DNA of 64,000 nt. It comes from Psychrobacillus sp. INOP01. Lineage in GTDB: Bacteria; Bacillota; Bacilli; Bacillales_A; Planococcaceae. The first letter of the stretch is position 1. Each line of letters opens with the position of its first letter. The notes under the pieces are model-generated. The model ran no database searches and was not told where the DNA came from. It saw only the letters and a program-made list of their open reading frames with translations. The position numbers and the translations under genes were made by a program. Of this stretch, positions 8,792-57,668 are shown in pieces. Location: NCBI RefSeq assembly GCF_018140925.1, contig NZ_CP073315.1:3472001-3536000 (forward strand), in the 5' to 3' direction.

Positions 8792-9198
8792 TAGGTAAGA
8801 AAGTATATGAAAATGTCCTATGAACATTGAGATCATGGTAATTTAACAAGTGAAAAGTATTGGAGATTTTCGTTCCGAGTCGTTTATAATGCTTCATCTG
8901 TCTCCCTAATCCCGTCGAAGACACTGCCTTTCACTTACTATCAAGTGAGTAGTACTTGTAAGGTGTCAAGAGCCATTTAAATACCATTTTCATAGCGATT
9001 CAGAATTAGTTTTTTTTAATACTAGTGTCAATTTTAACATTCCTCTATCAAAAAATGGTTGAAAGAGAGTTTATGCTTTTAAGTGAACGTAACGTAGAGG
9101 GGATGGATCTGTTAGAAAGTTGCCTTTAAGAGGGGTGTTTGTACATATTACAAGTCAATAGAGACATCTTGAAATACTTAATTGTCATAGTTCGTTCA
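8792..9198. other. Intergenic region between ctaF and ctaG with degraded repeat
   Basis: No gene is seen here. Directly after the terminator is GAAAGTATATGAAAATGT, a flank that recurs behind other terminators in this window. A degenerate copy of the GC-rich hairpin repeat covers about 8865-8952. The rest is AT-rich sequence without recognisable features. Confidence 0.6.
8865..8952 (+). repeat. GC-rich hairpin repeat R1, copy A (degenerate)
   Basis: GATTTTCGTTCCGAG at the left and CATCTGTCTCCCTAATCCCG plus CCTTTCACTTACTATCAAG at the right match the ends of the better copies at 16921 and 31191. The middle is shortened and the palindrome is largely lost. Confidence 0.6.
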
Positions 9199-16848: not shown

Positions 16849-16920
16849 AAAAGACAATTATATGCATTACGGGGCTTCGAACCCTGTGTTCATAGTACTC
16901 TATTGTATTAAACGTTACTG

Positions 16921-17057
16921 CTGATTTCCGTTTCAGGCGGACGCTTTCCGCGGGGTGAGCGATGAGCCATCACGTCGCTACGCTTCGTTGTGATGTCTCA
17001 TCTGTCTCACTCATCCCGCTGGAGTCGCCACCTTTCACTACAATCAATGAAGTGAGT
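16921..17057 (+). repeat. GC-rich hairpin repeat R1, copy B-left
   Basis: One of the best-preserved copies. It starts with GATTTCCGTTTCAGGCGGAC and GCTTTCCGCGGGG and ends with CATCCCGCTGGAGTCGCCACC followed by TTTCACTACAATCAATGAAG. The two ends are imperfectly complementary, and the core (GATGAGCCATCAC .. GTGATGTCTCATC) is itself palindromic. Forms an inverted pair with 17170-17286. Confidence 0.85.
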
Positions 17058-21712: not shown

Positions 21713-21783
21713 GAAAGATAAGCAAGTATATAAAAATGTAGCGCGAAAACTGGGTTCACGGAAATTTCAAGAATGAATAATCC

Positions 21784-31093: not shown

Positions 31094-31122
31094 AAGGTCT
31101 ACCTCAGAGGTAGGCCTTTTTT
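31094..31122 (+). terminator. Terminator of the acyl-CoA carboxylase operon
   Basis: AAGGTCTACC and GGTAGGCCTT pair around a 5-nt loop with one wobble/mismatch and end in TTTTTT. Confidence 0.92.
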
Positions 31123-31190
31123 AGAAGATAGGAAAGTATATAAATATAGAGTGCCATGTATTTTGAAGTATAGGATCTATCTAATAATAC

Positions 31191-31320
31191 TGCTGATTTC
31201 CGTCTGAGGCGGACCCTTTATAGTTAAGCATTGCCTCAGCCTCCTCGTTTTGCTGCGGGGTCTTAGCTAAACGTTTTTCCCGCTGGAGTTGCCGCCGTTC
31301 ACTACAATCAATGAAGTGAG
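31191..31320 (+). repeat. GC-rich hairpin repeat R1, copy D
   Basis: CTGCTGATTTCCGTCTGAGG CGGACC at the left, CCCGCTGGAGTTGCCGCC and TTCACTACAATCAATGAAGT at the right. The core has TTGCCTCAGCCTCCTCG and TGCGGGGTCTTAGC (second core type). The terminator-flank sequence GAAAGTATATAAATATAGAG precedes it at 31132. The stretch 31321-31589 contains no gene but shares about 60 bp with the spacer of copy B. Confidence 0.8.
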
Positions 31321-31590
31321 TAGTATCCAACAAGAAGATTTAGCGTAGTTTATCGGTAAGACTATTGGATTATTCTAAGTTAATGTAGGGATTATACCAA
31401 TTGTGTAATTACTATTGAATTAGAGATGATATTATTTTTCTAAGTTCTGGTGGGATTTAGCACATTAATACTATCTATGCTTAAAGGATGTTAATGTCAT
31501 TTATCTCCTATTAATTAGCAATTCAGGAAGTAGACTGATTTTATAGTAATGGAATTACAATGAATAGTTAGTGTTTATCCAATAAAGAAG

Positions 31591-31795
31591 GAGGGTGCGA
31601 TCGAAATTGCATCTTGGAGACCCTCACGATGCGGGATAGGAAATCGTTGCGAAATGCCCTTTTATTTTGCGAAGAGCTTCGAACAGGAGCACCACGATGT
31701 CGTGTCCTTAGACTGTCATCCTTTTCAAGGGTAGGAAAGAGATACTTGTTTTCTTCCCAAAAGCAGTACTAGATCAGTGCCTAAAGTTGAAGAAA
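31591..31795 (+). other. Hairpin-rich 5' extension of RNA-like repeat R2 copy 1
   Basis: No protein-coding frame. Several nested complementarities: GAGGGT (31591-31596) with ACCCTC (31620-31625), a CGAAGAGCTTCG hairpin (31670-31681), and CACCACGA with TCGTGTCC nearby. It precedes the conserved R2 core without interruption. It is absent from the short copy at 35418; a differently sequenced structured segment precedes the copy at 50883. Confidence 0.5.
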
Positions 31796-31936
31796 GGCGA
31801 CGGACAGATAAATGCCATACGATCAGCCTCTCTAATAAAATCAGTAGGTATAATATAGCAACAAGTCTGTCAGAAGCACTTCGAAAGCGATAGGAATCAG
31901 TTTTTGACCTTAAAGAGTGCTTGCCACTTTTTTAGA
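31796..31936 (+). repeat. Putative structured-RNA repeat R2, copy 1 (directly upstream of panE)
   Basis: Conserved core shared with 35418-35548 and 50883-51026. Closing helix GGCGA (31796-31800) with TTGCC (31921-31925); second helix GACAGA (31803-31808) with TCTGTC (31866-31871); inner helix GCCATA with TATAGC; conserved single-stranded TATAATATAGCAACAAG and TCGAAAGCGATAGG. It ends in CACTTTTTT just before the panE SD, a position suited to a leader or attenuator. Pairings covary between copies. Confidence 0.65.
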
Positions 31937-34970: not shown

Positions 34971-35170
34971 CAAATTGCAAGCGCTCGAAGATACAATTTC
35001 TGGCTCATGTCTTCTCTATTTGGCAAACACTTATTAATTCTCTATGATTCCACTAGTATAATAATAAACGTAATTCTGAATTGCTACGAAAAAGTTAGTT
35101 AAATGACGCTAGACACTTATAATCTTACATCTTAGATTGGCTGTATTAAAACTCACTATAAGTACAAATC

Positions 35171-35302
35171 ACTTGATTGTAGTGTAGGGCGGCGACTCCG
35201 GCGGGATGAGTGAGACAGATGAAACATCACAACCGACGCGTGAGCGACGGTGATAGTTCGTCGCTCACCCCGCGGAACGCGTCCGCCTGAAACGGAAATC
35301 TG
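35171..35302 (-). repeat. GC-rich hairpin repeat R1, copy E (inverted)
   Basis: TTGATTGTAGTGTAGGGCGG CGACTCCGGCGGGATGAG on the left and CACCCCGCGGAACGCGTCCG CCTGAAACGGAAATC on the right are the reverse complement of copy B-left. It has the first core type, GAGTGAGACAGATGAAACATC. The preceding stretch 34971-35170 is AT-rich with no gene or signal I can name. Confidence 0.85.
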
Positions 35303-35321
35303 CAGGAGTATTCATTTTGTT

Positions 35322-35357
35322 AAAGTAGCGTGAACCCGGTGTTCATGCTACTTTTTT
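35322..35357 (+). terminator. Hairpin terminator attached to R1 copy E
   Basis: AAAGTAGCGTGAAC pairs with GTTCATGCTACTTT (one mismatch) around CCGGT and is followed by T-rich sequence. Remnants of the same hairpin accompany copies B and C, so it belongs to the repeated unit; here it would stop readthrough in the region ahead of mraZ. Confidence 0.75.
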
Positions 35358-35417
35358 ATATACTTTCTTATATTTCAAAAAAGTAGGAAAAAATCACTTC
35401 TGGTTTCAAAAAGTTGT

Positions 35418-35548
35418 GGAGGGCAACGGACGGAAAAAGCAATAAGCCTCTCTTAAAAATCAATCGGTAATAATATTGCAGCAAGTCCGTCCAAAGCTCA
35501 CCGAAAACGATAGAAGCAATTTTTAAACTTAAAGGGCCTCCCGCTTTT
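35418..35548 (+). repeat. Putative structured-RNA repeat R2, copy 2
   Basis: Same order of elements as the copy before panE: closing helix GGAGG (35418-35422) with CCTCC (35537-35541), second helix GGACGG (35428-35433) with CCGTCC (35487-35492), inner helix GCAATA (35439-35444) with TATTGC (35474-35479), plus conserved CGGTAATAATATTGCAGCAA and CCGAAAACGATAGA. The 5' extension is missing. It lies about 345 bp upstream of mraZ. Confidence 0.65.
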
Positions 35549-50835: not shown

Positions 50836-51026
50836 CTAATTGTTAGTTGAACCATTCGGGCTTTTAGGGGCAGTTATCTACTGCCCGTTAATGCGGGACA
50901 AATGCCATAAGATTATCAACTAGCATCTATAAAAATTTACACGGTAATAATATAGCAACTGCTCTGTCTAAGGCACTTCGAAAACATTAGAAAAGGTTAT
51001 GAACTAAAAGTACCGGGCGTTTTTTT
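50836..51026 (+). repeat. Putative structured-RNA repeat R2, copy 3 (upstream of spoIIGA)
   Basis: Closing helix GCCCG (50883-50887) with CGGGC (51014-51018) followed by seven T; second helix GGACA (50896-50900) with TGTCT (50965-50969); inner GCCATA with TATAGC; conserved CGGTAATAATATAGCAAC and TCGAAAACATTAG. A 5' segment (50836-50882) has an AACTA-ATTG-TTAGTT hairpin within CCCC/GGGG complementarity. Sequence from 50661 to 50835 has weak similarity to the region before copy 1 and no gene. Confidence 0.6.
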
Positions 51027-57424: not shown

Positions 57425-57668
57425 ATAATATGCGTAGAAAAAGACGCCTAAATTTGTTTTCGATAAAGCGACTTGAGGGTGGTGAGAGCTCAGGAAGAGA
57501 AACTAATTTAGGATATCACTTTGGAGCAAGGGCACTGAACTTTTAGTAAGTGTCTTCGGTTAATGCCCCGTTATGGCATTCTAAGCGGCGATTTTTAAAT
57601 AAAATCGCAAGTAGGGTGGTACCGCGAGCATAACTCCTCGTCCCTTTTTGGGATGTGGAGTTTTTTTG
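57425..57668 (+). promoter_or_regulatory. T-box riboswitch (isoleucine) upstream of ileS
   Basis: Contains the T-box sequence AGGGTGGTACCGCG (57613-57626), a Stem I with specifier region GGATATCACTTT offering ATC (57515-57517, isoleucine), and a terminator AACTCCTCGTCCC/GGGATGTGGAGTT with T-run at 57633-57668 that competes with the antiterminator. Uncharged tRNA(Ile) binding would allow readthrough into ileS. Confidence 0.95.

Follow-up and report, generated by a model that had tools for sequence, protein, structure and literature searches.

A folded non-coding repeat upstream of panE in Psychrobacillus is probably part of a mobile element that lands beside intrinsic terminators

The attC sites of integrons are imperfect hairpins with a variable terminal stem and occur in tandem arrays, and group II introns begin with GUGYG at their 5′ end. 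Among the latter, the Bacterial-C introns are inserted directly after rho-independent terminators, with a strong strand bias that is called lagging by the source's own definition (excerpt of PMC8919778). IS200/IS605 elements carry secondary structures near their ends and act on the lagging-strand template (excerpt of PMC6006769), and REPs are short sequences of 20–40 bp (excerpt of PMC3733652). The Bacillus cereus repeats bcr1–bcr18 are non-coding and interspersed, show mobile features, measure 100–400 bp and vary in copy number with the strain, bcr1 reaching up to 130 (excerpt of PMC6542083). The pneumococcal repeats BOX, RUP and SPRITE, of which BOX is modular, are predicted to form stem-loops when transcribed and are over-represented between convergent genes; their orientation mirrors the coding bias, 60.8, 60.9 and 63.3% being leading (excerpt of PMC3049150).

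The DNA analysed here, a stretch of 64,000 nt from Psychrobacillus sp. INOP01 (the window), had been given an initial annotation in which one structured RNA of roughly 140 nt occurs at 31796, 35418 and 50883, the first copy serving as a leader of panE. Three related segments do lie there, but the family is not one of three: model R1, based on 42 copies, matches this genome (G000) 142 times or more. Nor are the 140 nt a whole element; they are the 3′ part of a longer one, which at panE extends from about 31128 to 31934. We think it probable that the segment forms the structured 3′ portion of a mobile element, non-coding and non-autonomous, that lands 3′ of terminators, and that the panE copy is a decayed one. 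The structured part, which we call the rod, was also searched for with model R2, for which 37 copies from elsewhere than the window were used; at E ≤ 1 its matches in the window are confined to the three copies (Table 1). Model R1 finds the same three at E ≤ 1.7e-10 (copy 1 at 3.8e-14), together with five matches at E 0.093 to 0.79. On a model of 168 positions the three window copies match over 130, 123 and 126 nt, having lost most of P6, the inner hairpin of about 38 nt, and in copy 3 the 5′ side is replaced by a module common to locus L011. Neighbouring genes were named by Pfam: copy 1 lies between a carboxyl-transferase gene (PF01039), the upstream neighbour at this site, and panE, and the neighbours of copies 2 and 3 are those listed in Table 1.

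Table 1. Parts of the element family located in the window
Feature	Positions	Strand	Basis
Rod copy 1 (R2 copy 1 of the initial annotation), most of P6 missing	31773..31902	+	model R2, cmsearch 57.6 bits, E 1.4e-13
Rod copy 2, bshC/mraZ intergenic, most of P6 missing	35399..35521	+	model R2, E 3.3e-11
Rod copy 3, ftsZ/spoIIGA intergenic, most of P6 missing	50873..50998	+	model R2, E 5e-05
Intrinsic terminator of the carboxyl-transferase gene, hairpin AGGTCTACC..GGTAGGCCT and T-run	31095..31122	+	sequence
Left end at panE, ATAGGAAAGTATATAAAT	31128..31145	+	pattern match, 2 mismatches
Whole mosaic element copy at panE, about 807 nt, non-coding	31128..31934	+	ends, homology extent
H1 relic (TCGAAATTGCATCTTGGA)	31592..31625	+	sequence
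Right end, short terminator-like hairpin AAAGAGTG/CACTTTTT and T-run, ending TTTTTTA	31912..31934	+	sequence
Left half of a second, inverted element copy	34979..35371	-	pattern matches, inverted repeats I1–I3, sequence

In an all-against-all comparison, the fullest copies of the family are homologous over about 720 nt. They begin with a left end that reads ATAAGAAAGTATAT or close to it and finish with a terminator-like right end (TTTTTCTTA; also GGACGCTTGCGTTTTTCTTA or similar). Some 60 nt upstream of the rod lies hairpin H1, whose loop is constant (GAAATTGYATCTTC) and whose stem varies on its two sides from copy to copy. If up to 4 errors are allowed, it is present in 60 of the 64 copies of a second genome of the genus, G010, for which this count and those of right ends and stop codons below use profile matches at E ≤ 1e-15 only. 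The rod itself comprises helices P1 to P6 in about 170 nt, and P6 is variable yet self-complementary, with a conserved tip, GTGAC..GTCAC. Element length is commonly some 460–720 nt. Both ends were recognised in 24 of 68 copies in G010 (7 of 457–478 nt, 7 of 552–611 nt and 10 of 240–1138 nt) and in 11 of 36 in G000 (8 of 585–715 nt and three shorter); nested or tandem cases are included among the long values, and copies too close to a locus edge were skipped, which left G015 with 3 copies and G004 with one.

At panE, five nucleotides separate the left end of the element from the T-run of the carboxyl-transferase terminator, which is the likely insertion target of this copy. A variant of the same terminator hairpin stands in 12 of 16 upstream regions of panE, whether the element is present or not; G002 has a different hairpin there, and in three of the 16 regions the sequence stops short. 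The inverted half-copy of Table 1 contains H1 near 34985–35000, a GC-rich module at 35173–35312 and a left end at 35354–35371, and its limit at 34979 was set by reading.

Several parts of the element were also seen away from a rod. The GC-rich palindromic module (window 35173–35312, L101) does not depend on the rod for its occurrence and is seen in either orientation; at window 16918–16953 (+) the composite repeat is represented by a GC-rich module, with no rod detected by model R2. By the same model, two further left ends stand in the window without a rod, at 8795–8812 (+) and 21718–21735 (+), with 0 and 1 mismatch, respectively. In L029, a lone P6-like hairpin (GGTCGTGAC..GTCACGACC) directly precedes a matched left end.

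The initial annotation had proposed a selected RNA-type fold, and compensatory change in the helices of 37 diverse rods bears this out. These rods were picked by hand, one to five per genome (alignment A2), and model R2 combines them with the predicted fold of L029; as the fold was thus taken from one of the 37 sequences, the paired-cell count is somewhat favoured. Over 64 pairs, 80.1% of cells are paired, compared with 68.8% in the shuffled control and 35.8–40.8% in the slid control; 303 cells are changed on both sides (128 ± 9 shuffled, 84–110 slid); and the covariation score is 0.360 (0.178 ± 0.007 shuffled, 0.083–0.107 slid). None of 500 shuffles reached the observed values; this is no probability, since sequences that are related may score above shuffled ones even when they have no structure, and of the two controls only the slid one retains relatedness. 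Two-sided changes are clear in P4 (A-U to G-C, U-A to C-G), P5 and P6. Weaker helices are P1, which pairs in 65.7% of cells, and P3, which pairs as drawn in 64.5%, and the 37-rod test gave no support to pairs 42–44/151–153, 27/167 and 64/126. Model R1 carries few pairs because RNAalifold on alignment A1 gave 23 pairs, below the trimmed consensus alignment (80 distinct sequences of 87 copies carrying two motifs). The family fold appears to be kept by selection.

Comparison with this fold sorts the helices that had been proposed from the three window copies. The second helix (GACAGA/TCTGTC, GGACGG/CCGTCC) is P3 and the inner helix (GCCATA/TATAGC, GCAATA/TATTGC) is P4. The closing helix (GGCGA/TTGCC) is absent from the consensus, where GGAGGGC pairs with GCCCTTC, and we rejected it: a closing-type helix of at least 5 bp is possible in 40 of 75 copies, compared with 32.7 ± 2.3 when partners are shuffled among copies, a weak excess among related sequences, and in copy 3 its 5′ strand falls inside the module common to L011. 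The conserved block CGGTAATAATATAGC, formerly taken as unpaired, is not chiefly so: the complete copies have the pairings CGGTAAT/ATTACCG and TAT.GC/GC.ATA.

The balance of G-U and A-C bears on which strand folds. G-U outnumbers A-C by 141 to 82, where 219 to 173 is expected from column make-up (5 of the 64 pairs were left out), and this lean means that the plus strand is probably the folding one. By helix, the ratio is 71:16 in six and 70:66 in the other three, a grouping that was made after counting. Within G000 and its close kin, G-U is about equal to A-C outside P2 and P3. Such a pattern would suit long-term selection on the folded plus strand combined with neutral decay of single copies.

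All 19 genomes of the genus are positive with model R1, the 18 besides that of the window having 5 to 148 matches each, the high values being lower bounds because the scoring covered 148 candidates per genome. In a sample of the family, this model matches 26 of 151 genomes, 9 of them outside the genus (6 of genus g27, 2 of g3 and a weak, partial match in g5); in a sample of the order, model R2 matches 39 of 261 (19 of the genus, 7 of g27, 12 of g3 and a weak one in g30). The element therefore also occurs in two, possibly four, other genera. A plain DNA search detected it in 17 of 41 genomes, none beyond the genus, and an exact-pattern scan of named genomes gave matches in Psychrobacillus antarcticus and P. 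psychrodurans. When the panE copy was used in a DNA search of its whole genome, 51 rows were obtained, of which eleven were 5′ pieces of copies already counted; merging these left 40 places. Two of the other genomes, G118 (C327) and G110 (C1:2.50–2.75 Mb), hold clusters of rods beside ordinary genes; the rods either repeat in tandem, in places about every 440 bp, or form divergent pairs.

Relatedness and site occupancy both bear on mobility. Of 210 rods, 170 have their nearest relative within their own genome, whereas shuffled labels gave a mean of 33.2 and a maximum of 50; this test excluded identical sequences and any match shorter than 121 profile positions. In a profile scan, a rod stands upstream of panE in only 4 of the 19 genomes of the genus (G000, G008, G005 and G010), in three as pieces only. 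The corresponding site is clearly empty in 6 of 16 regions (G015, G009, G013, G016, G003 and G002), and others hold element ends around different modules, as in G011 and G004; the latter has the closest PanE (85% identity), and its panE site has ends only. Upstream of mraZ, a rod is found in 4 of 18 readable genomes (G000, G004, G007 and G008). Copies also occur in tandem, head to tail, with few nucleotides between them.

As to where the element lands, only 69 of 180 copies have a left end that could be recognised, and a T-run of at least 5 lies within 20 nt upstream of 42 of these 69, compared with 383 of 6000 random windows. A strong hairpin accompanies the T-run at 28 of the 42, compared with 15 of about 75 sampled control T-run windows; by the same test, 27 of the 69 left ends have no T-run. 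Something like the right end of another element precedes 18 of the 69, by a permissive pattern that some host terminators satisfy as well. On the right, G010 has 31 cases of an opposing downstream gene; in 17 its stop codon is no more than 7 nt away from the terminal TTA, and in 9 exactly on it. For this count the right end went unrecognised in 13 of 64 copies, and 4 of the 31 opposing ORFs stop within the element. Insertion may thus have taken place between a bidirectional terminator and the stop codon. The panE junctions, compared by eye, revealed no clear target-site duplication, and no exact junction rule emerged; as regards a comparison with MITEs, the terminal inverted repeat is just about 7 bp (TAAGAAA/TTTCTTA), again with no clear duplication.

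The copies of G010 and G000 are strongly oriented along the chromosome. With origin and terminus inferred from the orientation switch and the position of panE, 100 of 106 copies in G010 run with replication (among the matches listed, of 140), as do 51 of 56 copies in G000 compiled by hand (40 from the DNA search with the panE copy, 8 from a plain DNA search, 6 from covariance models and 2 further window copies). Gene context was read in 60 stretches of G010: every second of the 106 (53), three more discordant ones and four others, all six discordant copies being included deliberately. They contain 74 places (profile E ≤ 1e-4), 67 of them leading. With neighbours defined as ORFs of at least 100 aa, 70 places have both; 32 of these are convergent, 27 have the element along both genes, 11 have it antisense to both and none is divergent. 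Places within one stretch do not count independently, and a few could be fragments of a single hit. In 38 cases the two neighbours share a strand, and 36 of these elements follow replication, 27 along leading-strand genes and 9 antisense to lagging-strand genes; the remaining 2 run against leading-strand genes, and no element runs along genes of the lagging strand. As the element is antisense to its lagging-strand neighbours every time (9 of 9), its direction in G010 is set by replication rather than by transcription, which a leader could not explain. In g27 and g3, whose origins were not mapped, both strands carry copies among the matches listed, frequently in divergent pairs or tandem arrays. 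Polarity of this kind may belong to this genus or to its machinery.

We propose a mechanism that would link these features. The element consists of the left end, H1, the rod of P1–P6 with its variable self-complementary tip stem, and the terminator-like right hairpin. It would insert just 3′ of intrinsic terminators and, in this genus, mostly in the direction of the fork, with its plus strand in the lagging-strand template; as its right end resembles the target, tandem copies could arise. Movement would require recognition of the plus strand, in the form of single-stranded DNA or of RNA, and the fold would be kept for that reason. Mobility would then be the selected function, single-stranded DNA of the lagging strand would be the target, and an enzyme supplied in trans, of HUH/Y1 or reverse transcriptase type, would move the element. 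The copy at panE is best read as a decayed insertion with no dedicated role, and not as a panE switch. A further proposal, that this is a new selfish element of the bacterial family in which terminators as landing sites, a terminator look-alike of its own, movement by a folded plus strand (lagging-strand single-stranded DNA or RNA) with no group II ribozyme and a diversifying self-complementary tip come together, we offer tentatively and with more doubt than belief.

No autonomous partner was found at the Y1 and reverse transcriptase loci examined. A Y1 protein of about 190–290 aa is present one to three times in 18 of the 19 genomes and would be a plausible partner, yet no link to rods emerged: none occurs in the 6 Y1 loci examined, and in G002, with its 28 rod matches, no Y1 was found. 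A reverse transcriptase partner was rejected on the ground that copy number does not track RVT_1 hits. G000, with its many rods, has a single RVT_1 hit (L253, C1:1467500-1474000), which adjoins an ATPase-like ORF of 647 aa and looks retron-like by its arrangement; G001, G016 and G018 have rods and no RVT_1 hit; and the 12 reverse transcriptase stretches examined (11 distinct places) contain no rod. Adjacent pairs of reverse transcriptase genes (436 + 308 aa in L255) were seen at five places in G010 (L255–L257).

These counts also weigh on the most durable alternative, that the same element travels by an RNA route: a transcript ended by its own terminator would be reverse transcribed by an enzyme acting in trans and inserted 3′ of terminators, as group IIC introns are. 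Bacterial-C introns do land right after terminators with a strand bias (excerpt of PMC8919778), and the terminator-like hairpin at the end of the element and the covarying fold, with some lean towards G-U, fit such a route. The distribution of reverse transcriptases does not, and L029, L149, L139 and L126 match no group II family at E ≤ 1. Furthermore, the left end is not the GUGYG of group II introns. We judge the RNA route unlikely, although it fares better than the other alternatives.

The polarity itself, the absence of divergent places among 70 and the right ends set at opposing stop codons in 17 of 31 cases would also be expected of a polar element useful to the host, for 3′–3′ termination, protection of mRNA 3′ ends or chromosome organisation, that was spread by an old mobile process. 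Copy numbers that vary from 5 to 148 between congeners, copies that are decayed or truncated and sites that differ between species speak against such a role, which seems to us distinctly improbable. Still further down the scale is a family of small non-coding RNA genes acting in trans: the terminator-like end and conserved loops are what such genes might have, but the many diverged, mosaic and truncated copies make this a very remote prospect. Finally, a riboswitch-like cis leader of panE, as first supposed, is suggested by the end of copy 1, where a short hairpin with its T-run (the latter correctly noted at the outset) stops 18 nt ahead of the panE ATG, but is as good as ruled out by site conservation and orientation, the rod being upstream of panE in so few genomes, other copies lying beside unrelated genes or antisense to both flanking genes, and copy 1 itself having lost most of P6.

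Database searches agree with the first impression that the repeat matches no known family. At gathering thresholds, Rfam gave no match to the element in the whole window, where only a T-box leader scored (RF00230, 117.8 bits, window 57426–57648, upstream of a 918-aa ORF). Around the panE copy, one match of chance level was returned at E ≤ 10, and the better copies and relatives L029, L149, L139 and L126 yielded no credible family at E ≤ 1. A group II intron was rejected on this lack of an Rfam match and on its different ends. The initial annotation had named a match to a transposon end or to Rfam as grounds for abandoning its reading; the former is in substance what the segment looks like, one end of a mobile element, and the latter did not appear. 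Collections of plasmid and phage records gave no blastn match to the element, and the literature searched, mostly without subscription papers, contained no title describing such an element.

The repeat is a large structured non-coding family with no Rfam match, reaching well over a hundred copies per genome in its genus and with relatives in other genera of the bacterial family. It joins landing at terminators and replication polarity in an element with no recognised ribozyme or transposase, and the identity of its mover would directly test whether single-stranded terminator hairpins are a general target of mobile DNA. For annotation, the warning is that such copies should not be read as gene-specific leaders.

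Among known systems, the attC sites share the imperfect hairpin, the variable terminal stem and, in some genomes, the tandem arrays; they differ in that the rod is about 170 nt and its copies are chromosome-wide. Integron cassettes, which the tandem arrays at first resembled, were rejected, the neighbours being ordinary genes and the spacers holding short frames (at most about 100 codons from stop to stop in L149 and L139). With group IIC introns the element shares insertion directly 3′ of intrinsic terminators and a strand bias, a polarity that may or may not match theirs, but it has no group II match at E ≤ 1 and begins with ATAAGAAAGTATAT. With IS200/IS605 it shares secondary structures near the ends and an orientation tied to replication in G010 and G000, and Y1 proteins occur in 18 of the 19 genomes; other genera look mixed. 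It is much longer than REPs and REPINs, its rods are absent from the 6 Y1 loci, and the genome in which no Y1 was found still has 28 of them. The bcr repeats are alike in being non-coding interspersed repeats of Bacillales with many copies and mobile features; as far as descriptions can be compared, bcr mobility is tied to TTTAT repeats and to the B. cereus group (excerpt of PMC6542083), whereas here the ends are ATAAGAAAG and TTTTTCTTA beside terminators. Compared with BOX, RUP and SPRITE, at 60.8, 60.9 and 63.3% leading, the element is far more strictly oriented in G010 (100 of 106 with replication among the matches listed), and whereas SPRITE consists of nothing but a terminator-like stem, the present element is longer and has a conserved fold of several helices.
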